Shown piece by piece: positions 9,894 to 21,562 of a stretch of DNA of 22,860 nt. Under the pieces are notes generated by a model that searched no databases, had not been told where the DNA came from, and was given only the letters and a program-made list of their open reading frames with translations. How positions within the stretch are numbered: the stretch's first letter is position 1; every line of letters begins with the position of its first letter. A program made the position numbers and the translations under genes. The stretch comes from a virus: positions 1 to 22,860 of IMG/VR virus record IMGVR_UViG_3300025483_000081, one strand, 5' to 3'.

Positions 9894-9950
9894 ATTATAA
9901 GGGAAAACTGGTCCCCATAGGGGATTCCTGTGACACTAGAAAAACTGGTC
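9894..9950 (-). promoter_or_regulatory. Putative activator-type promoter, copy B
   Basis: On the minus strand GACCAGTTTT (9950-9941) and AGTGTC (9937-9932) precede TATAAT (9899-9894) with exactly 32 nt between AGTGTC and the hexamer. A second GACCAGTTTT lies at 9913-9904, a 37-nt direct repeat. Between them is a 5-bp hairpin, TCCCC-TAT-GGGGA (9924-9912), followed by CCAGTTTT, which could weakly terminate the upstream transcript. No TTGACA-like -35 is present. The leader to the helicase ATG is about 10 nt. Confidence 0.6.
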
Positions 9951-10349
9951 TAGGGTCACTTCAGCAGGGGTTCCATCAAAACGGTAATGGTATGTTAGCG
10001 CATCTGCCTTTACATAATGGGGGTGACTTGGATTAACGCCAAGACGTTGACACAATTCTATATGATTATCTTCTTGAAATTCTATTACATAAAGCATGTT
10101 ATCTAACACATGCATCTCATCATGATATTGACATAAAAGTTCTTTGAGTCTGATAGAAAAATTACCAGATCCTGCACAAAGATCTAAAAACTTTGCATCA
10201 GGATTTTGTAACTTTTCTAAAGGAATTTGATCAATCATTTCATTAACAAGACTTGGAGGAGTAAAGACTTCTCCAGTATTATCAATTCTATTTTTTGACC
10301 TTACAATATTAGACCCAATATTTTTTACCTCAGTTTGATTTTTTAGCAT
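9936..10349 (-). CDS. Truncated N6-adenine DNA methyltransferase-like protein (137 aa)
   Basis: It carries the front half of a gamma-type adenine methyltransferase: NTGEVFTPP (24-32), the motif-X/SAM-entry segment of N6 methylases, FLDLCAGSGNFS (54-65, motif I, SAM binding), a motif II acidic residue in YVIEFQ (87-92) and a motif III-like VKADALTYHY (113-122). It stops before motif IV (NPPY or DPPY), so it cannot catalyse methyl transfer alone. The frame is open to a GTG at 10421, but the ATG at 10349 (MLKNQTEVKN), 20 nt inside the end of the upstream gene, is more natural. It may be a SAM-binding regulatory relic, or complement the weak motif I of the upstream fusion protein. The stop lies within the copy-B promoter element. 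Confidence 0.75.
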   Translation of the reverse strand: MLKNQTEVKNIGSNIVRSKNRIDNTGEVFTPPSLVNEMIDQIPLEKLQNPDAKFLDLCAGSGNFSIRLKELLCQYHDEMHVLDNMLYVIEFQEDNHIELCQRLGVNPSHPHYVKADALTYHYRFDGTPAEVTLDQFF

Positions 10350-13300
10350 AGTAAGGATTGGGAATGACATTGAGCATTGAACAAACTGTACGGAATCCAC
10401 CGCTGAGTTGACATGCTTCACGGTAAGTATTTGCTTCGTCTGAGTTCAAGAATTCTACTATAGCACAACCCTCCTCTTCACTATCAACCAGTAAGTACAT
10501 ACTATTATCAGTTGCACCATACTTACCATCATCATAATAGGGGTAAAAGTTACCACCTTCTTTAAAAATTACTTTTTTTTGTTGATAGTAAGGTTGAGGT
10601 TTCTTATCATAAACAAACTCAGGTTCTCCATCTGGAGTTGTTTTGTTTACATTGACATAGCAACCCTCAAAGTAAACAGTTGGATCAAACTTATTTGGAT
10701 TCTTTTTATCTTTGAACCTAGGAGCACGTCCAACTTTAGCAGTCAGACGGGGAATAGATGCGTCAGTATTGATATACTTCTTAAGAAGATCAAGGCTATG
10801 ATTGGGAATAAAAGGATAGTCACGGAAATCTACATCAATCCACTCATTAGTGTCTTGAAATCTTACCTTTGTAGCACTAGTTCGTTCTTCTTTCTTGTAA
10901 GAATACCAATCATAAGGAGTGGATGCATTGAAAACTTTACTTCCTTCCTTAGAAGAATGAATAGAAAGTTTTTCAACTTGAACATCACGCATCAAATAAT
11001 GACGGGCATTATTGTCTTTCCTAAGACCAGGAGGATGAACCATAATTCCATATCCACCTTCTTTCAAGAGATTGTAACCAATCTCAGCAAAATCTCCATA
11101 AGAAGATTTACCAGTCTTATGAGAGTTGATTGAATATGGGGGATTTGAAATCACACCATCAAATTCAACTTTACCCATAACATCCTCCAAGTTGGCAATA
11201 ATGTTGATTTTCTTGCTCAGACATTCTACCCTAAAACGGTGCGTTTGACAAGACTCCCAGACCCACAAATTTTCGGGGCGGATACCTTTATGTTCAATTA
11301 GATAAGCACTTTGCGATCCAGAGGGGTCACAAATCAAAAGAATTTTGTCATCAGATTGAACATAATCATCACACATTTCCGATAGGAGAGTGAAAGGAAT
11401 TCCACGCTGATCTTGAGAGGAAACTGATAGCGTATCCAAAGTATTAGCGAGGGAGTTCTTAATAGAAATATCAATATCTACCGATGCTTGAGAAAGCCGA
11501 TAGAGAAATTTGTTGCTGTCAATGAGTTTCTCATCAATGCAACGCTGAATGATATTTTCATAATCACCAGTCACACTCTGATAGTAATTGCTATTGAGAA
11601 TCATTTCAATAGAGTTTGCAGAATTTCCTTCCCGCAGTTCATAAAGAATTACAAGAGGAATAGACTCCAAAATAGACTTAATTGTCTCTTTTTTGCGATG
11701 CAGTTCCTTGTTAGAAACAGGTGTGTTTTCTAGATCCTTTTTTACATTGGTTTTTCCGTTTGCATCATTATCATTCACCTCAACGTCTTTTACAACATTT
11801 GAAGTAGAAGATTTAAGGTCCAAGTTCAGATCAAATTCTTCTAGTTTGTTGAGATCAATATGATAGCAAGCACTAGAAATCAGTGAGCGAGTATCACCAA
11901 TGTCACAAGCAGTGATTTCATTAATCTTATCTTGTGTCATTTTTGTGTATCCTTTGCACCACTCACTAATAGCAACAAAATCCAAAGGAGTGAACTTTGC
12001 AAGTTCAGGATTACTATCACATGCCATTGAGTATGCAAGACGAAGAGATTCTAGACACTTTTGTGGAGAATATTCAATGACTCTGTAATCATGATCACCA
12101 GATCCACCACGCGATGCACCTTGAATCCAGAACTCAGTAGATTTACCCTCAGAGCAATTGATAACAGTATCAATCTCTTTTACAGTCACTCCAAGAACAT
12201 TTGCCCAACGGGTAATGATCATGGTTTTAGTATTTTCTGCAACATGCTTGCGAATCATATCCGCATCAACATTAGCATCTCCAATTGCAACTAGAGGAGC
12301 ATAATCTTTGATGTAAGGTGCAATCAATTCACATGCTTCTGCACTAGGCATCAAAAGATATGCATGTTGAGTTTGATTCATCAAACGATCTTCACTTTTG
12401 CGAATATGACGTTGAGTAGAGAGACGATTGTAAACAAAATCAATAACAAGATTCTCATGAGCAAATTTACCATCTTCAATGGTAAAAGTATTCTTCATTG
12501 CATCAGGAGAATCTCCATAGATTTTGCGATATTCATCAGACTCATACTTTGTGAGGACTACGTTTAGTTTTCCACGATGAAAAATTCCACGTTTAACATC
12601 AAGTTGCTCATCAAAATAAGAGTAGATGAAGGTATTATCCTTAGTAAACTCTGGTGCCTGTTTGAATGCAGTACCAGACGCATACATGCAGGGAACTTCA
12701 CTTAGAAGATCACGAATGTTATTCCATTGCTTACCAAAATATCCGATGTGACATTCATCATAACAAAGGAAATCTACCTGAGAAAGACTCTCAACCTTAC
12801 GAATCAAACCTTGAATTGTAGACCACAAGACTACTTGTGTTCCTTCAACTTGAGACCAGAACTCAAGCTGCTCTTCCCATCCCTTATCAGAAAGGCAGAT
12901 ATATTTAATGTGATCAAATTCTACAAATCTTTTACTATCTTCTTTCCAAGATTGCTCAGGAGATTTACTCCGTGAAACAACAAGGGAAACTTTGAAATTA
13001 CGATCTACAATGTGAGAAAGTACCATTGCAGATTTTCCTGCACGGCATTTTGCCCACAGAAGAAAGTCAGCATATTCTTTACTTGCCTTTTGAATAAAAT
13101 CTTTTTGATATGGACGCGGAGTAAAATTAATTTTGTCAGTAACAATCCCGTCAAGAGAAAACTCCTTACGGCACATTTCTACAATAATTTCTTCAGTGTA
13201 TGAGTGATTGCCACGAAAAGCAAAAACTTCGGAATGCTTTTTAGAAAAAGGAATATTCTTAAGAAATATATGAATATCATGGTCGCGACCACTGAAGTTC

Positions 13301-13485
13301 TTAAAGAAAGCAATAACTTTATAATCTCCACTACCATCTGGAGACATTGCAGCAAGCATTGCCCTTGCTTTGGAATGATCTCCCATTGAAAGACGACCAT
13401 TCACAAAATCTTGTTCAGTTTCACCACATCCGATAATTAGATGAGGAGTCTTAAAGTTGGGAATGATAAAGTAGATGTTCTTCAT
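10330..13485 (-). CDS. SF2 helicase / N6-adenine DNA methyltransferase fusion (1051 aa)
   Basis: Order: N-terminal domain of unknown type (1-118); helicase core (about 120-470) with PRPYQKDF (123-130), WAKCRAGKSA (144-153, Walker A), CYDECHIG (241-248, DECH Walker B), ASGTAF (269-274, motif III) and IQGASRGGSG (454-463, a degenerate motif VI); a polar linker around 550-600; then a methyltransferase (about 705-1045) with CDPSGSQSAYLI (719-730, motif I) and ISNPPYSIN (779-787, motif IV of N6-adenine enzymes). Helicase plus methylase in one chain is seen in type ISP restriction enzymes and in DarB of phage P1, which protects injected DNA from type I restriction. No nuclease motif was found, so modification or anti-restriction fits better than restriction. 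A consensus sigma70 promoter lies 38 nt before the ATG. Confidence 0.85.
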   Translation of the reverse strand: MKNIYFIIPNFKTPHLIIGCGETEQDFVNGRLSMGDHSKARAMLAAMSPDGSGDYKVIAFFKNFSGRDHDIHIFLKNIPFSKKHSEVFAFRGNHSYTEEIIVEMCRKEFSLDGIVTDKINFTPRPYQKDFIQKASKEYADFLLWAKCRAGKSAMVLSHIVDRNFKVSLVVSRSKSPEQSWKEDSKRFVEFDHIKYICLSDKGWEEQLEFWSQVEGTQVVLWSTIQGLIRKVESLSQVDFLCYDECHIGYFGKQWNNIRDLLSEVPCMYASGTAFKQAPEFTKDNTFIYSYFDEQLDVKRGIFHRGKLNVVLTKYESDEYRKIYGDSPDAMKNTFTIEDGKFAHENLVIDFVYNRLSTQRHIRKSEDRLMNQTQHAYLLMPSAEACELIAPYIKDYAPLVAIGDANVDADMIRKHVAENTKTMIITRWANVLGVTVKEIDTVINCSEGKSTEFWIQGASRGGSGDHDYRVIEYSPQKCLESLRLAYSMACDSNPELAKFTPLDFVAISEWCKGYTKMTQDKINEITACDIGDTRSLISSACYHIDLNKLEEFDLNLDLKSSTSNVVKDVEVNDNDANGKTNVKKDLENTPVSNKELHRKKETIKSILESIPLVILYELREGNSANSIEMILNSNYYQSVTGDYENIIQRCIDEKLIDSNKFLYRLSQASVDIDISIKNSLANTLDTLSVSSQDQRGIPFTLLSEMCDDYVQSDDKILLICDPSGSQSAYLIEHKGIRPENLWVWESCQTHRFRVECLSKKINIIANLEDVMGKVEFDGVISNPPYSINSHKTGKSSYGDFAEIGYNLLKEGGYGIMVHPPGLRKDNNARHYLMRDVQVEKLSIHSSKEGSKVFNASTPYDWYSYKKEERTSATKVRFQDTNEWIDVDFRDYPFIPNHSLDLLKKYINTDASIPRLTAKVGRAPRFKDKKNPNKFDPTVYFEGCYVNVNKTTPDGEPEFVYDKKPQPYYQQKKVIFKEGGNFYPYYDDGKYGATDNSMYLLVDSEEEGCAIVEFLNSDEANTYREACQLSGGFRTVCSMLNVIPNPYYAKKSN

Positions 13486-13522: not shown

Positions 13523-13552
13523 ATTGTACTGGAATACGTGGGGGTCTGTCAA
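13523..13552 (-). promoter_or_regulatory. Sigma70 promoter of the helicase-methyltransferase gene
   Basis: TTGACA (13552-13547), 18-nt spacer, TACAAT (13528-13523) on the minus strand, giving a leader of about 30 nt to the ATG at 13485. The -35 overlaps the stop codon of the 36-aa gene upstream. Inverted arms GACAGA/TCTGTC (13513-13518 and 13545-13550) flank the spacer and -10 and could be an operator, but may be chance. Confidence 0.72.
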
Positions 13553-13682: not shown

Positions 13683-13739
13683 AGTATAAAGTCCCTTACA
13701 GAGGATTCTGGAGGGACTGGGACACTTTCTAAACTGGTC
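13683..13739 (-). promoter_or_regulatory. Putative activator-type promoter, copy A, with overlapping hairpin
   Basis: On the minus strand GACCAGTTT (13739-13731) and AGTGTC (13726-13721) precede TATACT (13688-13683) by exactly 32 nt. A hairpin AGTCCCT/AGGGACT (13718-13712 and 13696-13690, 15-nt loop) followed by TTT lies between them and could act as a weak terminator for the gene before. No -35 hexamer is seen. The distal block overlaps the stop codon of the upstream gene. Confidence 0.58.
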
Positions 13740-15264
13740 TATCAAGTGGAATGTTTTCTTTTATTAAATTAATCAGATCTTTATTCTTTGATGCAACACC
13801 TAATCCAAAAGTATGAGTAAAGTTTAATTTTGGAAGATCCAATTCTTCAAAAAATCTCTTGACTCCATATTCATTTCCGTTTATATTATCAACCATTGTG
13901 TCATGGAAAAGAATAACAGCATCATCAGATAGAAACTTACTCCAAGTTTCATAATCATTTTTTATTGATTCGTATGCATGATCACCATCAATGTGGAGAA
14001 TATCTATTTCTTTATCCCACTCTTTTGCAATATCATCAAAATATCCTTTGATGAATGTAAGATTGTCTTTGAGAAATAGTTTTTCTTGCTTTGATAAAAC
14101 AAATGGATATAAACTAGGATCTCTTTCTCCTGCATATTGATCACCTTCAAAAGAATCAATACCATAAACATGACCAATTCTAGGAATTGCAAACGCAAAT
14201 GAAGAGAATCCGTGGTCAACACCAAGATCTACAGTAATTTTTGGTTTAACTGTTTTTACTAACCATTCAGCAAATCCCCTATGTCCCCTCCAACAACTAT
14301 GCAAATCATCTAGATTAGTCAAAAATAATTTGTCAATTGCTTGTGTTCTTTCCGCAAGTGCTTTAGTCTCTGGTGAAAAACTAGATGCAAATACTACAAG
14401 ATCGCTGTTCTGTAGATAAATGCCCAGATGTAAAATATGAAGAAAGGATTGTTCGACATATTCAGAACCCATCTGAATAGATTCACTTAGACTATGAATT
14501 GCATAATTGACTGAGTTTTGAAATTGTCCAATTTGATAGAATAATTTACTACAATCTTGAAATATAATTGGTCTAAAAGTATTGCTATAAGGCTTACTAT
14601 TAGATAAAAACTTTGAACCATAATCTAGTGCTAATTCATAATTTTCAACACTATTATAGTGCTTAAATATAAACCAAATGAAATACCAATTTGTTGGATC
14701 TTTTTTATGCTCCCTTTCACATAAAGAAAGATAAAAAAGTTCTTTGTCTACTGTTTTATTGATATCCTTGATTATTTTTACAGTAGTTTCTACAAAAACT
14801 TCATTCTCAAAATCTTTTGATGGTATAAAGATGGGATGTTCGTGAACAGCATTTTTCCAAGTATAATTTTGAGTCCTATGAAATCTTATATGAACTTCTT
14901 TTGATTCCTTTTCTTCATCACCAATCTTATCAAATCTTTTATGTTTGAAGGATGTAAATTGGTCTTCAAGAGGGGTAAATCCCTCAGGAGAAAACTCTTG
15001 AATATCTTCATTAAAATCTAAACTTAATGCCCAGTCAGTTTTAACATATGATAAAGATTTATTTCTTGCCTCGGAAAAGTCAAATTCTTCTCGAGACATT
15101 GGATGTTCATGAACAGTAATTCCAGCATTTCTCAATCTCTCTACAGTATTATCTGTACTTCCAGTATCTACTACAACAGTATCTGAAAATAATCTTGAAG
15201 TTTCAATAAATCTATCTACGTTTTTTTCTTCATTTTTGCAGATGGCATAAAGAGTTATGTTCAT
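13729..15264 (-). CDS. GT2 glycosyltransferase / class I methyltransferase fusion (511 aa)
   Basis: The N-terminal ~145 residues are a family-2 glycosyltransferase of the WaaE-like subgroup: LYAICKNEEKNV (5-16), VVDTGSTDNT (31-40), SEARNKSL (64-71), SLDFNED (81-87, nucleotide-sugar metal site) and NAVHEHPIF (138-146). A helical TPR-like middle follows (about 165-310). The C-terminus (about 325-490) is a Methyltransf_24-type SAM enzyme: VDLGVDHGFSSF (345-356), YGIDSFEGD (367-375), LHIDGDHAYESI (423-434), ILFHDT (451-456). The protein probably adds and then methylates a sugar, on virion proteins or host glycan; substrate unknown. The longer frame starts at TTG 15279; the ATG at 15264, overlapping the previous stop (ATGA), is preferred. 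Confidence 0.87.
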   Translation of the reverse strand: MNITLYAICKNEEKNVDRFIETSRLFSDTVVVDTGSTDNTVERLRNAGITVHEHPMSREEFDFSEARNKSLSYVKTDWALSLDFNEDIQEFSPEGFTPLEDQFTSFKHKRFDKIGDEEKESKEVHIRFHRTQNYTWKNAVHEHPIFIPSKDFENEVFVETTVKIIKDINKTVDKELFYLSLCEREHKKDPTNWYFIWFIFKHYNSVENYELALDYGSKFLSNSKPYSNTFRPIIFQDCSKLFYQIGQFQNSVNYAIHSLSESIQMGSEYVEQSFLHILHLGIYLQNSDLVVFASSFSPETKALAERTQAIDKLFLTNLDDLHSCWRGHRGFAEWLVKTVKPKITVDLGVDHGFSSFAFAIPRIGHVYGIDSFEGDQYAGERDPSLYPFVLSKQEKLFLKDNLTFIKGYFDDIAKEWDKEIDILHIDGDHAYESIKNDYETWSKFLSDDAVILFHDTMVDNINGNEYGVKRFFEELDLPKLNFTHTFGLGVASKNKDLINLIKENIPLDRPV

Positions 15265-15959
15265 ATGTATTTCTCCCAATTAATGCAAGGTGATAAAAAG
15301 TTTCCATGACAATGAGTACAATATCCTGGAATTGGTGATGCCAAATAATTTCCTTTTCGACTCAGTTCAATGAATTTGATGTGATCATTTGAAGGTTCAA
15401 CATTTGTTGAATGTTTTTTATGAATTTCAAAGTCTTCTAATAAAGTTCCAAATCTAGTTGCAAAAGTATTTGTTGTTGATGGAACTGGCTTCCAGTGAGA
15501 ATTTTCTGTAACTAAGATCTTAGACATTAGATCTTTATACATTTCTTGATACTTATCGCCATGATCATACAAAGTTACATATTTTACTGGTAGGGTAAAT
15601 CCTTCTAGTAAAATATTTGCCCAATTATCTTTATGTAAGTAATCATCTTCTAGAAAATAGATAATCGTATCTTCATCAAAATTTTTAGACTTTATTATAT
15701 CTAAAGTCTTGAGAAAACTTTTTGATTCTTTACCTGCTTTGATTCTTATAACATCTTTCTCATCTTTCAAGAAAGTATCTTCAATCTTCCCATACGTCTC
15801 ATCATAGATTATTGTATAATTTACTAAATTTGGATCTAAAGTTCTCTTAAAGTTTAAAAATGTCTTTTCTTTATCCCACCAACTGGGTCTAGATCTTGAT
15901 GGTTGCTCTTGCAATTTAGAGTAAAAGCAATGACGTAAAAATACTTCAATTTTTTTCAT
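15261..15959 (-). CDS. Putative glycosyltransferase (232 aa)
   Basis: It reads like a GT-A fold sugar transferase: after an N-terminal Arg/Trp-rich region (SRSRPSWWDKEKTF), IIYFLEDDYLHKDNW (99-113) supplies a DxD-like acidic site on a strand end. KYVTLYDHGDKY (126-137) and STTNTFATRF (161-170) follow, then ASPIPGYCTHCHGNF (207-221), a pattern I associate with phage glycosyltransferases of this size. The donor and acceptor are unknown. The gene is directly upstream of, and overlaps by 4 nt, the GT2/methyltransferase fusion, so the two probably act on the same glycan. No late promoter is obvious in the 45-nt gap before it. Confidence 0.65.
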   Translation of the reverse strand: MKKIEVFLRHCFYSKLQEQPSRSRPSWWDKEKTFLNFKRTLDPNLVNYTIIYDETYGKIEDTFLKDEKDVIRIKAGKESKSFLKTLDIIKSKNFDEDTIIYFLEDDYLHKDNWANILLEGFTLPVKYVTLYDHGDKYQEMYKDLMSKILVTENSHWKPVPSTTNTFATRFGTLLEDFEIHKKHSTNVEPSNDHIKFIELSRKGNYLASPIPGYCTHCHGNFLSPCINWEKYI

Positions 15960-16004: not shown

Positions 16005-19000
16005 TTAGAGATCTATTTCTTCAATTGCAGCACTATGATTAAGACTAATGTCAAAATTCTTCCAATTATATCCACCTCTAAATGTTGTTACTGGAGTTAA
16101 AGATGAATTATTTGTTAAGTTGCCAAGACCGCTGTATCCCCAGGTCCATAAACTTCCATCACTCTTAGTTGCAATATTACAAATACCTCCAAGTTTTACA
16201 TCTTTCCAAGTATTTCCTCCACCAAAAACTTCAATTGGAGTGTTGGCAAAAAGTGAATTAGAATTAACTGGTAGGACATATGGTATTCCGCTATATGAAT
16301 TAGTGTCACTGGAGACTCCATTTCTTCCCCAAAAAAACATTTGTCCCTGTTTTGATATTGCGCCAGTAGCATGTAGACCAGAACTAACTTTTTTCCAATT
16401 ATTTTCACCATATGCTACCTGAGTTGGAGTCAATCTTTCAACACTACTGTGTGATAAGTTTATGCCAAGTTCTCCACTAGCATTCGATCCCCATGCCCAT
16501 AGAGTACCATCATCACGAATAGCACTTGATGACTTAAATGACGCAGAAATTGCTGGTGGAATATGTTGTGGAGAGCACCAATTACTGTCTGAATACTCTG
16601 TTTGAATTGGGGTAGTCAGGTAAGCACTACCATAAGACAAATAATTTCCAGATTGACGTTTATTATTTTTCCCCCACGTCCATAGGGTTCCATCAGTTTT
16701 GGTTGCCCAAACATAACTATCATTTCCCACACCACAATAACAATTTTCCCAATTATTACCACCACCAAATGTAGTTACTGGTGTATATCTTCTTTGATAT
16801 GTGCTGTAGAGAACACCAAGTTGACCCACGCTATTTGCACCCCAAGTCCACAGAGTTCCATCTGTTTTAATTGCTACAGTAAAATCATGACCAGTACAAA
16901 CACTTTTCCAATTATTACCACCAGCAAATGTAGTTAGTGGTGTCATAGATAAGGCAGTGGAGTCGTCATTTCCTAATACACCAAAACCCCATCCCCATAA
17001 AGTACCATCCTTAGCAATAGCGTGCATATGATTAGAGTTGTGTCCTGTAGAAAGAACTCTCCATTGATCCGAACCTGAGAATAATGTTACTGGAGTTGAT
17101 TCGTTTTGATACATTAAAAAATTATTCCTTCCCCAACTCCATAATTGCCCATTATTTTTTAAAGCAAAAGTGGCATATTTATTGCAAGTAACTTGTTTCC
17201 AATCATTTCCACCAGCAAATGTAGTTACTGGTGTATAAGTGTGAGTAGTAAGATCTAATTTATTAATTCCAAGACCTCCTCCATATCCCCATGTCCATAG
17301 GGTTCCATCAGTTTTGATTGCTGCCATATGGTAATTACTAACTGAAACTTGTTTCCAAGATCCTCCATTATGCACTTGTGTTGGAGTGACTGAATCTGTT
17401 GACGAATTTGTTCCAGATATTCCATAATTGTTATTTAATCCCCACGTATACAATTCTCCATTATCTCTAATTGCAGCAGATCCGTTTTCTGAAGATGCAA
17501 CGCCTTTAAATCTTTTAGTATCGGTGGGTAATTGTGTTGGTGGTGAATTGTTAATGTTTTTAAACCATTGACTATTTCCTTTTCCCCAAGCCCATAAAGT
17601 TCCATCTCTTTTTACAACTACTTCACCACCTAAAGTTTGTGGTAATCTATCTGAGTAAACTCTCTTCTGATCTTCAGAAGTTTTCCATGTCATTCCTGGA
17701 CTATTAATTTGAACAGGTCTTGAAAATGTAGAACTTAAATTCGAGTTTGTCAATTGACCAAATCCATTATTTCCCCAAGTCCATAGGGTGCCATCATTTT
17801 TAGTTGCTAGCACATGGTCATAACCAAAAGTAATATAATCCCAATTAGTACCTCCAGCAAATGTAGTTACTGGTGTATATTTTGTACTATTATATTCATA
17901 TAAATTGGAAGTATAATTGTCACTATTAATTCCTAGTTGACCTTGATTATTCCTTCCCCACATCCATAAGGTTCCATCAGTTTTGATTGCTCCCATAACC
18001 TGATCCCCACAAGCAACCTGTTTCCAGTCAGTTCCACCAGCAAATGTAGTTACTGGTGTTTTTCTGTAGTTGAAATCACCAAAATTGTTTATACCAAGTG
18101 TTGAATAATTTGTACTTCCTCCACCCCAAGTCCATAATGTTCCATCAAGCTTGATTGCTGCACAATTACCTGTTCCTTTAGAAACTTGCTTCCAATTATT
18201 ACCACCAGCAAATGTAGTTACTGGTGTTTGAGCTGATCCACTCCGTAGATTATTTCCAAGAGCACCTGCAATCTCAGTACCATTAGTCCACAATTTTCCA
18301 TTACTATCGATTGCAGACCATCCATCACTCCAAATGTATCCACATTCTACTTGTTTCCAATAAGTATTCGGAATGGTATTTACTGGAATTGATAATCTGT
18401 TAGAATACCAGACCTGATCTCCCCATTCCCATAAGGTTCCATCATCTTTAATTGCTGCCGAAGAGTTCCACTTATTTTGATTTTGATACTGATTACTTAC
18501 ATAACTTGACCGACGAGTATGACTACACATATACCAATTGTTACCACCAGCAAATGTCGTTATGGGACTAGAAACATAATTTTGTCTATTGGACCATCCT
18601 TGACTAATTACAGGCAAATAAGCTCTCTCAGCACCAATTCCCAAATCAAATTTTTCTCCCCAATTAAAAAGATTTCCTGATCCTATGGCAGATCTAGTTC
18701 CACCAACAGTATACCAATCAGCATTATTGGAAACTAATTGTGGAGTTATTGAATGTACATATCCAGTTTCATAACCATTATCACCATGTCCTAATTCTCC
18801 ATAATAATTTGATCCCCAAGACCATAGAGATCCATCATTTTTTACAGCAAAAGATGATGACTCTGGGGCGAATCCTCCAAGTACAGTATAATCTCCACTA
18901 TCAGTATAATTCCAATAAAAACTCTCACGTTGATGATATATATTTTTTGTTGCAACTGCAAGTTTCCAATCATTTCCACCTGCAAATGTAGTTACTGGAG

Positions 19001-20324
19001 TCCACCTATCTACTCTATCATTTGTTCCAAGTTGTCCAGTACGATTATGTCCCCAAACCCATAAACTTCCATCAGATTTGATTGCTGTACAATGAATAGA
19101 TCCTGCATTAATAAGTTTCCAATCACTTCCACCAGAAAATACTGTTGTTGCAGTATATGCAACTTTAAATTGAGAACCATTCACAGTATATGTGGGTGCT
19201 ACATTATTTGCGAGAATTGAATATCCCCATTGCCATAGAGTTCCATCTCGTTTAATTGCATAGGCATGTCTTTCTGCTGCAGAGATTTTTTTCCAATCAC
19301 CACCAGGTATTTCTATTGGAATGGTTATATTGAGATTAGCAGCTGCTATAGCACTCCCACTAGCAGTAGGAGGTCCCCCTCCAGAGACACTGTGTTGATT
19401 ATTGCTGAAATCTGCAAATGATCCTTGACATATGAGTAGTTCTGTTCCAGTAACAGCAGGTAAAGGTGCGTTTGGTACTGTGAAGTTTGATGTGTAGAGA
19501 GCATTGCCTTTGACTAGGCGGAAGTTGGAAATATAACCATCAAAGGGATACTGTAGATACGGATCATTAGGTTTTCTATCACCGATAGTAAAAGGTTCAG
19601 TATTTGTGAAATCCGTATTTATATTTGTTGAAGTATGCTCCAATATGCCATTAATATACATTTTCAAAGTACCAGAGGATCTAGTGACCGCAAGATGATA
19701 CCAAGTATTATTTGCTACATCGCTACTAGATTGGTACATAATGATACCACTATTGCCATCATCTTGAGCACCAAATGTAAATTTATTCTGATAGAAAGAT
19801 ATATTATATGTCCAGGGTATGACTCCATCGCCTTTGCCACCAATATGAGCGTAAGTACTCGCCCCCACACTGGATAAACTTTTTACCCAACACTCAATAG
19901 TAAAATCACCTGTCCCTAAATTTAAAGTGTCATCACTTGCAATTGAGAGATAGTCATCACCATCAAATAATACACTACCCGCATTAGCAAATGGTTCTAT
20001 AACACCACCAAAATTATATCCAACTGATGTTGCATCTCTTCCCCAAGACCACATGGTTCCATTTTGTTTGATACCATATCCACACGTAATATTAGAGGCA
20101 ACACTTTTCCAATCAGTTCCACCTGCAAATGTAGTTACTGGAGTTGACTTTACTGCTGGCACTCCTGGGGTGTCATTAGTTCCAAAAACGTAATTATTTC
20201 CACTTTCATTTTTCCCCCAAGTCCAGTATCCTCCAGACTGAAAAATATCTGCATAAACAAATTTACTTTCAAAAGTTTGTTCTACGCCATTTTCAGTAAA
20301 TCTAAGGTTGCTACTTTCGGGCAT
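16005..20324 (-). CDS. Giant RCC1-repeat protein with LamG-like domain, probable tail/adhesion protein (1439 aa)
   Basis: The chain contains 21 RCC1-type blade signatures (LWTWG or variants), at about residues 33, 91, 363, 421, 500, 552, 631, 678, 730, 786, 847, 910, 958, 1009, 1062, 1109, 1158, 1214, 1275, 1330 and 1392. Each blade of 50-55 residues pairs this with AIKTDGTLW and TPVTTFAGGNDWK. Twenty-one equals three seven-bladed propellers. Between blades 2 and 3 (about 115-315) lies a concanavalin/LamG jelly-roll (VLFDGDDYLSI, FTIECWVKS, WYHLAVTRSSGTL, FDGYISNFRLVKG). The N-terminus FESKFVYADIF is shared with the neighbour gene and may be the virion anchor. No signal peptide. A phage late promoter (20354) supports a structural role, probably host or glycan binding; this is inferred. 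Confidence 0.85.
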   Translation of the reverse strand: MPESSNLRFTENGVEQTFESKFVYADIFQSGGYWTWGKNESGNNYVFGTNDTPGVPAVKSTPVTTFAGGTDWKSVASNITCGYGIKQNGTMWSWGRDATSVGYNFGGVIEPFANAGSVLFDGDDYLSIASDDTLNLGTGDFTIECWVKSLSSVGASTYAHIGGKGDGVIPWTYNISFYQNKFTFGAQDDGNSGIIMYQSSSDVANNTWYHLAVTRSSGTLKMYINGILEHTSTNINTDFTNTEPFTIGDRKPNDPYLQYPFDGYISNFRLVKGNALYTSNFTVPNAPLPAVTGTELLICQGSFADFSNNQHSVSGGGPPTASGSAIAAANLNITIPIEIPGGDWKKISAAERHAYAIKRDGTLWQWGYSILANNVAPTYTVNGSQFKVAYTATTVFSGGSDWKLINAGSIHCTAIKSDGSLWVWGHNRTGQLGTNDRVDRWTPVTTFAGGNDWKLAVATKNIYHQRESFYWNYTDSGDYTVLGGFAPESSSFAVKNDGSLWSWGSNYYGELGHGDNGYETGYVHSITPQLVSNNADWYTVGGTRSAIGSGNLFNWGEKFDLGIGAERAYLPVISQGWSNRQNYVSSPITTFAGGNNWYMCSHTRRSSYVSNQYQNQNKWNSSAAIKDDGTLWEWGDQVWYSNRLSIPVNTIPNTYWKQVECGYIWSDGWSAIDSNGKLWTNGTEIAGALGNNLRSGSAQTPVTTFAGGNNWKQVSKGTGNCAAIKLDGTLWTWGGGSTNYSTLGINNFGDFNYRKTPVTTFAGGTDWKQVACGDQVMGAIKTDGTLWMWGRNNQGQLGINSDNYTSNLYEYNSTKYTPVTTFAGGTNWDYITFGYDHVLATKNDGTLWTWGNNGFGQLTNSNLSSTFSRPVQINSPGMTWKTSEDQKRVYSDRLPQTLGGEVVVKRDGTLWAWGKGNSQWFKNINNSPPTQLPTDTKRFKGVASSENGSAAIRDNGELYTWGLNNNYGISGTNSSTDSVTPTQVHNGGSWKQVSVSNYHMAAIKTDGTLWTWGYGGGLGINKLDLTTHTYTPVTTFAGGNDWKQVTCNKYATFALKNNGQLWSWGRNNFLMYQNESTPVTLFSGSDQWRVLSTGHNSNHMHAIAKDGTLWGWGFGVLGNDDSTALSMTPLTTFAGGNNWKSVCTGHDFTVAIKTDGTLWTWGANSVGQLGVLYSTYQRRYTPVTTFGGGNNWENCYCGVGNDSYVWATKTDGTLWTWGKNNKRQSGNYLSYGSAYLTTPIQTEYSDSNWCSPQHIPPAISASFKSSSAIRDDGTLWAWGSNASGELGINLSHSSVERLTPTQVAYGENNWKKVSSGLHATGAISKQGQMFFWGRNGVSSDTNSYSGIPYVLPVNSNSLFANTPIEVFGGGNTWKDVKLGGICNIATKSDGSLWTWGYSGLGNLTNNSSLTPVTTFRGGYNWKNFDISLNHSAAIEEIDL
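16766..18227 (+). repeat. Repeated DNA segments encoding TPVTTFAGG/KTDGTLW in the giant gene
   Basis: The plus-strand 19-mer CAAATGTAGTTACTGGTGT begins at about 16766, 17216, 17858, 18041 and 18209, with further one- or two-mismatch copies (for example about 16925, 18985 and 20128). Another recurring piece, ending GGTTCCATCAGTTTTGATTGC-like, encodes AIKTDGTLW. Near-identity at DNA level, rather than only at protein level, implies recent duplication or gene conversion. Confidence 0.8.
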
Positions 20325-20362: not shown

Positions 20363-21562
20363 TCAACTGGACAGATATTCTCCTTCAAAAGTTAAAGCAC
20401 CTATTGATGCACTATCATGTCCTGAGAAAATAGTTTTCCAACCATTTGTAACTATATCTACCTGTACAGGTGTTAACTTGTCATCAGTACCAGAAACACC
20501 TAATTGACCATATGCATCATATCCCCATACCCATAAAGATCCATTAGTTCTTATACCAAAACATGAAGAGCCTATCATTTCAACAATTTTCCAATCATTT
20601 CCTCCACCAAATGTAGTTACTGGTGTATATCTATCTACACTATCATTTGTTCCAAGTTGTCCTCTAAAATTTATCCCCCATGTCCATAGGGTTCCATCAG
20701 TTTTGATTGCTGCAGAGCAGTTTTGTCCACAAGAAACCTGTTTCCAGTTAGTTCCACCAGCAAATGTTGTTACTGGCGTATAACTATCTGTAGTATGGTT
20801 TATTCCTAGATTGCTCCAAGTATTTGATCCCCATGCCCATAAGGTTCCATCAGTTTTGATTGCTACAGAATAACCATGACCATTAGAAACCTGTTTCCAA
20901 TTATTACCACCAGCAAATGTAGTTACTGGTGTTATACTATTCTCTGATCTATTAATTCCAAGATTACCAGTTCCCCACACCCATAGGGTTCCATCAGTTT
21001 TGATTGCTGCTACACTATTAGTTCCACAAGAAGCCTGTTTCCAATCAGTTCCACCAGCAAATGTAGTTACTGGTGTTGAACTAACAGTTGCAGTATTTGT
21101 TCCCAACACCTCATACGAATTCCCCCATGTCCATAATGTTCCATTGGTTTTAATTGCAGCAGTAACATTCTTACCGCAAGAAATTTGTTTCCAATCATTG
21201 GAATATCCAATTCTTGTTGGTACTGATTTTGTGTCTGGGGAACCATTCCCCAAAAGTGCTCCAGTTCCCCAACCATACAATTTCCCATCAATGGTAATTG
21301 CATTCATTCTATCAAGGTTATTGTTATTTTGCGGATAACTATTGCCATATACGGATCCAGATTTCCACCCCAATTGGGAATAATATGTTTCATATGGTCC
21401 AGATTGATTTGCAAAATTTCCAGTTTTATTATTTCCAACTTGTCCTTCTACACCTCTTCCCCAAGACCATAAATTTCCCGTGAAGAATAGATCTGCAGAC
21501 ACAAATCTGTCTTCAAAAGGGATGATAGATTCTCCATCTTGATAGTTGTAATTACTTGGCAT
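20363..21562 (-). CDS. Seven-bladed RCC1-repeat protein, probable virion-associated (399 aa)
   Basis: Seven blade signatures (LWSWG 31, LYGWG 95, LWTWG 143, LWVWG 193, LWAWG 240, LWTWG 291, LWVWG 343) make exactly one beta propeller. Blades repeat every 48-51 residues with TPVTTFAGGTDWKQVSCG and AIKTDGTLW. The start (DGESIIPFEDRFVSADLFFTGN) parallels the giant gene downstream, so both likely attach to the same site, perhaps tail fibre or baseplate. RCC1 propellers in eukaryotes bind chromatin proteins; in phages they are thought to be adhesins, which is inference. It overlaps the YkgJ-type gene by 11 nt. Confidence 0.82.
   Translation of the reverse strand: MPSNYNYQDGESIIPFEDRFVSADLFFTGNLWSWGRGVEGQVGNNKTGNFANQSGPYETYYSQLGWKSGSVYGNSYPQNNNNLDRMNAITIDGKLYGWGTGALLGNGSPDTKSVPTRIGYSNDWKQISCGKNVTAAIKTNGTLWTWGNSYEVLGTNTATVSSTPVTTFAGGTDWKQASCGTNSVAAIKTDGTLWVWGTGNLGINRSENSITPVTTFAGGNNWKQVSNGHGYSVAIKTDGTLWAWGSNTWSNLGINHTTDSYTPVTTFAGGTNWKQVSCGQNCSAAIKTDGTLWTWGINFRGQLGTNDSVDRYTPVTTFGGGNDWKIVEMIGSSCFGIRTNGSLWVWGYDAYGQLGVSGTDDKLTPVQVDIVTNGWKTIFSGHDSASIGALTFEGEYLSS
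20608..21076 (+). repeat. Tandem ~150-nt repeats in the seven-blade gene
   Basis: Copies of CAAATGTAGTTACTGGTGT or a two-mismatch form start at about 20608, 20761, 20914 and 21058, i.e. spacings of 153, 153 and 144 nt, matching one propeller blade each. The same 19-mer occurs in the neighbouring giant gene, so the two genes could recombine. Confidence 0.8.

Follow-up and report, generated by a model that had tools for sequence, protein, structure and literature searches.

A cyanophage gene for a putative single-chain restriction-modification enzyme with a GIY-YIG/T5orf172-type domain, found as an exchangeable cassette

The locus

The window analysed here comes from an ocean virus of cyanobacteria and is itself a virus record of 22,860 bases (IMG/VR record IMGVR_UViG_3300025483_000081). 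It matches T4-like phages of Synechococcus and Prochlorococcus. Its minus strand displays a single unbroken open reading frame (ORF) of 1051 amino acids (aa) at positions 10330–13485, with the stop codon at 10330–10332, as seen in the ORF listing and translation. The product is considered here as a putative phage-borne restriction-modification enzyme. A previous sequence-only reading described a helicase-methylase fusion of this length, without stating the strand; the ORF and all the motifs it named (KCRAGKS, DECH, QGASRGGSG, DPSGSQ and NPPY) are present. The gene, its domains and the adjoining features are:

10330–13485, minus strand: fused 1051-aa gene (ORF and translation; relatives)
13132–13485, minus strand: predicted T5orf172/GIY-YIG-type domain, residues 1–118 (AlphaFold, VIA-align, relatives' Pfam scores, profile match)
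11956–13131, minus strand: superfamily 2 (SF2) helicase/translocase core, residues 119–510, with Walker A AKCRAGKS, DECH, SGTA and Q-x3-R-GGS (Pfam ResIII; VIA-align RadD)
11374–11955, minus strand: helical linker, coupler-like, residues 511–704 (predicted helices; fission points of split relatives near 595 and 705)
10906–11373, minus strand: gamma-class amino-methyltransferase core, residues 705–860, with DPSGSQ, VWE and NPPY (Pfam Eco57I; profile match)
10333–10905, minus strand: probable target-recognition domain (TRD), residues 861–1051 (weak TaqI_C match; swapped as a unit in relatives)
9936–10370, minus strand: small partner gene, phrog_4376, with its ORF open from 10421 (PHROG match, E-value = 9e-51; start candidates)
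13523–13552, minus strand: sigma70-like promoter TTGACA-18-TACAAT, upstream of the big gene (11 of 12 consensus matches)

PHROG 22930, a family of unknown function, matches residues 3–705 of the window protein. A tblastn search across a phage collection shows relatives in nine phage records, eight of these with 35%–38% identity. Several relatives are deposited as "type II restriction-modification system restriction subunit", which is the depositors' annotation. A query of IMG/VR with the single protein yielded no relatives, but an alignment query found 52 viral loci that code for them; one of these, L006, is 76% identical over the whole length. Every domain shows purifying selection in comparison with L006 (ratio of nonsynonymous to synonymous rates, dN/dS, 0.08–0.25; 0.19 for the N-terminal domain), and the methylase core and specificity domain are well conserved between the two. 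Because of the relatives in phage records, the 52 viral loci and the selection on all domains, the ORF is not a chance one. An assembly or frameshift artefact as the source of the fused ORF was also considered, and was dropped, since 16 of the 44 members examined in the family have such a fused ORF. Matches to NCBIfam geranylgeranyltransferase and Aminotran_5 are below cut-off and represent noise, and a PDB sequence search with the whole protein gave nothing useful.

The sigma70 promoter described in the sequence-only reading is the best in 5 kb and starts the big gene's leader 38 bases ahead of it, although promoter-like sites as a whole are just as many as expected from shuffled sequence. 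A promoter-like site no more than hints at early expression.

Motor, coupler-like linker, methylase and probable target-recognition domain

As read from sequence and models, the domain order is a nuclease-type domain, SF2 motor, helical coupler, N6-methyladenine (m6A)-type methylase and specificity domain, which is the type ISP layout. When the full-length model is compared by Foldseek, the type ISP enzyme LlaBIII comes first (4xqk; E-value = 3.6e-18, 1058 alignment columns), in keeping with the type ISP precedent suggested earlier.

Pfam matches above cut-off are ResIII (4.6e-5) and Eco57I methylase (5.5e-7). The motor alone resembles RadD by VIA-align (Z = 24.4), and other SF2 proteins are also alike. 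Its motifs are at aa positions 146–152 (KCRAGKS), 243–246 (DECH) and 455–463 (QGASRGGSG). The last of these, motif VI, had been singled out as a possible sign of a different helicase cycle. The sequence is indeed unusual, but it is a family trait: among 33 aligned relatives the Gln and first Arg are invariant and the second Arg is Ser in all 33. It is therefore no sign of a different cycle in the window protein. The motif is QxxFRxQ(S/T)P or a close variant in bacterial relatives and Q-x3-R-GGS instead in the phage clade.

The methylase has NPPY and a divergent motif I, DPxGxH, and it fits the profile of Eco57I-type N6-adenine methylases. The phage methylase profile matches residues 236–572 of a bacterial methyltransferase (MTase) with a probability of 99.7. 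The TRD assignment draws on a weak TaqI_C match at residues 960–1026 (E-value = 0.027).

The N-terminal domain

The sequence-only reading saw no nuclease motif. A nuclease fold was looked for in residues 1–118, and one is predicted there. The AlphaFold model of this segment (39-sequence alignment) has a predicted local distance difference test score (pLDDT) of 85.5. Its order is b-b-a-b-a-b-b-a (b, strand; a, helix), which contains the strand-strand-helix-strand-helix arrangement of GIY-YIG domains. When aligned to solved structures by VIA-align, the top three entries are At-HIGLE and two Slx1 structures, all of them GIY-YIG nucleases (Z = 5.1–5.3), and the next row is at 3.7. Foldseek with the same model has GIY-YIG chains at ranks 9 and 30; these come to the top only after realignment by VIA-align.

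Two relatives, at loci L046 and L049, score 25 bits with Pfam T5orf172 (PF10544; cut-off 20). The window protein itself has no match to this family in Pfam at an E-value of 0.1. A profile comparison of residues 1–100, which is a check independent of the structural match, shows similarity to the N-termini of bacterial helicase proteins (E-value = 1.1e-6, probability 91) with IY, GxT, D-x3-H and EWF in register. The N-terminal domains of these bacterial proteins in turn match stand-alone T5orf172 proteins (E-value = 3.6e-11). When the window-type N-terminus was compared by plain hidden Markov model (HMM) with S-SKS1_215 and with a stand-alone T5orf172 protein, neither match was significant; the link to T5orf172 runs through the bacterial T5orf172-helicase proteins. 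A PDB search with the N-terminal profile gave nothing useful. The two phage types of N-terminus gave a profile match that leaned on residues from the helicase side and fell to a probability of 50 after trimming to 1–100; it was not used as proof.

In the family alignment, Y5, G21 and D68 are invariant, T23 and E86 are nearly always present (E86 is the Glu of an EWF-like motif in the window protein), and R31 is found in 26 of 33 sequences. As far as prediction goes, and with a modest structural match, residues 1–118 appear to form a T5orf172/GIY-YIG-type domain.

Bacterial relatives

Relatives were sought in 84,980 bacterial species, and 11 loci were obtained. These belong to Bacilli, Clostridia, Mollicutes and unclassified Firmicutes or bacteria. 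No cyanobacterial locus is among them; as the scan was pattern-based, this absence is weak. The well-covered loci show the gene order partial methylase, NPPY methylase and T5orf172-like-helicase. A survey of 295 genomes in the same phylum (Firmicutes) shows relatives in 20, among them T5orf172-helicase ORFs and single-chain ORFs with a T5orf172-like N-terminus, a helicase and NPPY near residue 1010.

All three modules of the window protein are homologous to this bacterial T5orf172-helicase-MTase family: the helicase by tblastn with the family profile, and the methylase and N-terminus by the profile matches given above. One PADLOC model, PDLC03626 "REase_MTase_IIG" (1359 aa), covers both the helicase and the methylase of the bacterial relatives; thus proteins of this kind are already in databases as putative restriction enzymes. 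PADLOC with the window protein itself gave no PDLC03626 match, only MTase_I (1.1e-4), at an E-value limit of 0.01. Two features set the phage clade apart from the PDLC03626 family: loss of the KIG lysine in most members, and motif VI as described.

The small partner gene

The partner gene encodes about 144 aa from a probable start ATG at position 10370 and overlaps the big gene. Its product displays VFTP and DLCAGSGNF motifs and no NPPY, and its profile matches residues 52–123, in the N-terminal half, of a bacterial methylase (probability 97.3). The sequence thus matches the S-adenosylmethionine (SAM)-binding half of an N6 methylase. With few exceptions, the 44 family members examined have a partner homologue next to the methylase module. 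None was seen at L015, nor at L051 and L052, both truncated by the end of the contig; in the phage species ACG-2014f the partner gene is upstream instead. The gene also occurs with methylases in phages that do not have this helicase.

In P-SSM2 a bare catalytic half, which begins with the NPPY strand and has a stop codon 15 codons before it, is found beside the same partner gene, and this favours a split enzyme. The split is also supported by the matches of the partner to the N-terminal half, and of the phage methylase to the C-terminal half, of one bacterial methylase. The phage methylase itself contains a divergent DPxG motif, however, so a second SAM site is possible, and not just a split enzyme. 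It is tentatively suggested, at somewhat less than even odds, that the partner is a shared SAM-binding subunit which stays even at the "empty" site and would serve whichever cassette of catalytic half and nuclease/motor recombination installs there.

Two related arrangements were observed. In S-SKS1 (L071:3489–4868, minus strand) a 458-aa protein has a GIY-YIG-looking N-terminus (FYIGQT...DYSK) fused directly to an NYPY methylase half, with no helicase and with the same partner gene next; HMM comparison gives no significance to the N-terminal similarity. A second, distant methylase-like gene is found at about 135.4 kb in KJ019052, and in other ACG-2014f isolates, where the cassette site is empty and the partner gene is kept.

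Fused, split and swapped forms

The 44 family members comprise 16 fused forms, 22 split near residue 705 and five split near residue 595. Fused and split forms are interleaved on the helicase tree. Gene fission in relatives, together with altered catalytic residues, could be taken to indicate a functionless, decaying relic of a captured bacterial restriction-modification system. This is highly improbable: frames are open at about 50 viral loci, the dN/dS values are low in all domains, and a promoter lies 38 bases upstream.

Domain comparisons between pairs of loci show that the nuclease and specificity domains, as assigned from sequence, are swapped independently of each other. L018 and L023 have helicases of 96% and TRDs of 99% identity, with N-termini only 31% identical. 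L024 and L028 have 87% identity in the helicase but 17% in the TRD. At L025, L026 and L028 two tandem methylase genes lie downstream of one nuclease-helicase gene, as if storing two specificities.

Cassette exchange at one genome position

Isolates of ACG-2014f show three states of the same site. Isolate C7 has a 58-aa gene directly after the partner gene, i.e. an empty site. Isolate C24 has about 3.1 kb more at the site than C7, and this is a cassette of the window type. Isolates C9 and C90 have an unrelated cassette, consisting of a 200-aa protein, a methylase and a helicase. The site flanks are 95%–99% identical among isolates, and S-CAM7 isolates differ at the cassette site in the same way. 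Thus cyanophages exchange whole enzyme cassettes at one genome position, with allelic cassettes and an empty site.

The 200-aa protein of the alternative cassette has a GVDG...QIKYK pattern and a sub-threshold Mrr_cat match (E-value = 0.11). From this pattern it is possibly, though not provably, a PD-(D/E)XK nuclease.

The ACG-2014f cassette junctions carry a repeated terminator-promoter element of about 75 bases. This element also repeats between many small genes in the ACG-2014f isolates L002, L069 and L076; it bounds the cassettes and is a candidate recombination site. PMC4503421, with a citation of the original work, discusses the promoter-stem-loop elements by which T4-like phages undergo such shuffling.

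The distribution of the gene bears on one other explanation of the N-terminal domain, which might nick or resolve DNA in phage recombination or repair, the methylase marking phage DNA and thereby confining the processing to DNA of the host or unmodified DNA. T5orf172 domains have been proposed as recombination nucleases (PMC7824862), and GIY-YIG domains are also present in structure-specific nucleases such as Slx1, one of the best fold matches. The sporadic presence of the gene and the empty site in sister isolates do not fit a core replication role, however, and TRD swapping fits site-specific modification. This explanation is considered unlikely.

Relation to named systems

Type ISP enzymes are single chains of an Mrr nuclease, SF2 ATPase, coupler, methylase and TRD (PMC4666363). 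The window protein has the same single-chain order as LlaBIII and LlaGI, with LlaBIII at the top of the Foldseek list. However, its N-terminus is of the GIY-YIG/T5orf172 type and not Mrr (PD-(D/E)XK), its length is about 1050 aa as against 1484 aa in chain 4xqk, overall sequence identity is low, and it is associated with a separate SAM-binding half-methylase gene. Judged by its predicted anatomy it would work like a type ISP enzyme, a class also defined by ATP-driven translocation and by cleavage once two enzymes converge. It is not a member, however, as it lacks the Mrr nuclease, and it is not filed there.

DarB of phage P1 also combines a helicase and a methylase in one phage protein, as in the window; it is packaged and protects DNA in cis. 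The window protein differs in having a nuclease-type domain. No P1 record was found in the phage-wide tblastn at an E-value of 1e-5, a search not aimed at distant homology.

The same three activities are found in Bacillus subtilis as three adjacent genes, dnmA-yeeB-yeeC, for a methylase, an SF2 helicase and a T5orf172 protein (PMC9973331). There the genes are separate and DnmA is MmeI-like (PMC9973331); the likeness to the window protein is one of described activities. Homologues in Vibrio crassostreae are reported to be protective against some phages (PMC9973331).

Restriction-modification and its main alternative

The big gene is proposed, with a probability of about 0.6, to encode a phage-borne single-chain restriction-modification enzyme of type ISP layout, in which a GIY-YIG/T5orf172-type domain replaces Mrr, and which would mark its own DNA and cut unmarked DNA. 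This proposal is based on the GIY-YIG fold, the T5orf172 scores of relatives, the bacterial profile match and the Foldseek match to LlaBIII. It is also based on the bacterial T5orf172-helicase(-NPPY) relatives, the bacterial gene sets of MTase and T5orf172-like-helicase that PADLOC models as type IIG, the allelic cassettes and empty site, the independent domain swapping and the purifying selection.

Several observations weigh against it. The N-terminal structural match is modest, its Z of 5.3 being under 8, a value below which the tool advises caution, and Foldseek with the N-terminal model alone has no match below an E-value of 1. At the YIG position the window protein has Gly (G19) in place of Tyr/Lys, and most phage members have Gly or Asn there; L046-type members keep a Lys. 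The metal-binding catalytic Glu of GIY-YIG enzymes is replaced by the invariant Asp D68, and bacterial relatives likewise have Asp. DNA cutting by this domain is uncertain because of these two changes. Window-type members display a D-x2-K motif after the Arg, and compensation by this motif is speculation. Finally, dnmA-yeeB-yeeC gave no restriction of three phages in B. subtilis, where the set acts as an orphan methylase (PMC9973331).

The loss of the YIG-position Tyr/Lys in the window type and the orphan methylase would also suit methylation without cutting. The GIY-YIG-like domain would then be a non-cutting DNA-binding or docking module, and the motor and methylase would shield phage DNA in a DarB-like manner. 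The conserved methylase core and specificity domain, and the occurrence of the partner gene with methylases where this helicase is absent, are consistent with such a role. On the other hand, Y5 and D68 are invariant, R31 is mostly kept, and the N-terminal domain is retained in relatives under purifying selection. The allelic cassette also has a possible PD-(D/E)XK protein in place of this domain, and similarity to DarB was not detected in the phage-wide tblastn (E-value limit 1e-5). Anti-restriction or genome marking had been put forward in the sequence-only reading, where it followed from a missing nuclease; a nuclease-type domain is now predicted, and with one catalytic position changed a methylation-only role keeps some probability, though appreciably less than restriction-modification.

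As a restriction-modification enzyme, which may benefit the phage, the protein would act as follows. The likely task of the C-terminal domain is to recognize a DNA site. The methylase, with the small partner as second SAM-binding half, would put N6-methyladenine on that site in phage DNA. At an unmethylated site the SF2 motor would travel along the DNA, which could be that of a co-infecting phage or the host chromosome, and the N-terminal domain would cut. Cyanophages would swap these enzymes as cassettes at one genome position.

Lytic T4-like phages are commonly viewed as the targets of restriction. The allelic cassettes and the swapped nuclease and specificity domains in one cyanophage species suggest that phages themselves wage sequence-specific DNA warfare, on the host chromosome or on co-infecting phages. 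The labels "DNA methyltransferase" and "restriction subunit" are scattered patchily over marine phage annotations, and cassette enzymes of this kind are a possible cause. The series of fused and split enzymes represents natural material on the coupling of nuclease, motor and methylase modules.

Neighbouring genes

Three other ORFs of the window, all on the minus strand, display recognizable domains. The 516-aa ORF at positions 13729–15279 has a glycosyltransferase family 2 and a Methyltransf_24 domain. Two RCC1-repeat proteins are encoded at positions 16005–20324 and 20363–21562. The first has 1439 aa and an N-terminal laminin-G/concanavalin-like lectin domain, and the second has 399 aa. Both RCC1-repeat genes contain many internal DNA repeats, and their products are possibly virion or host-binding proteins.

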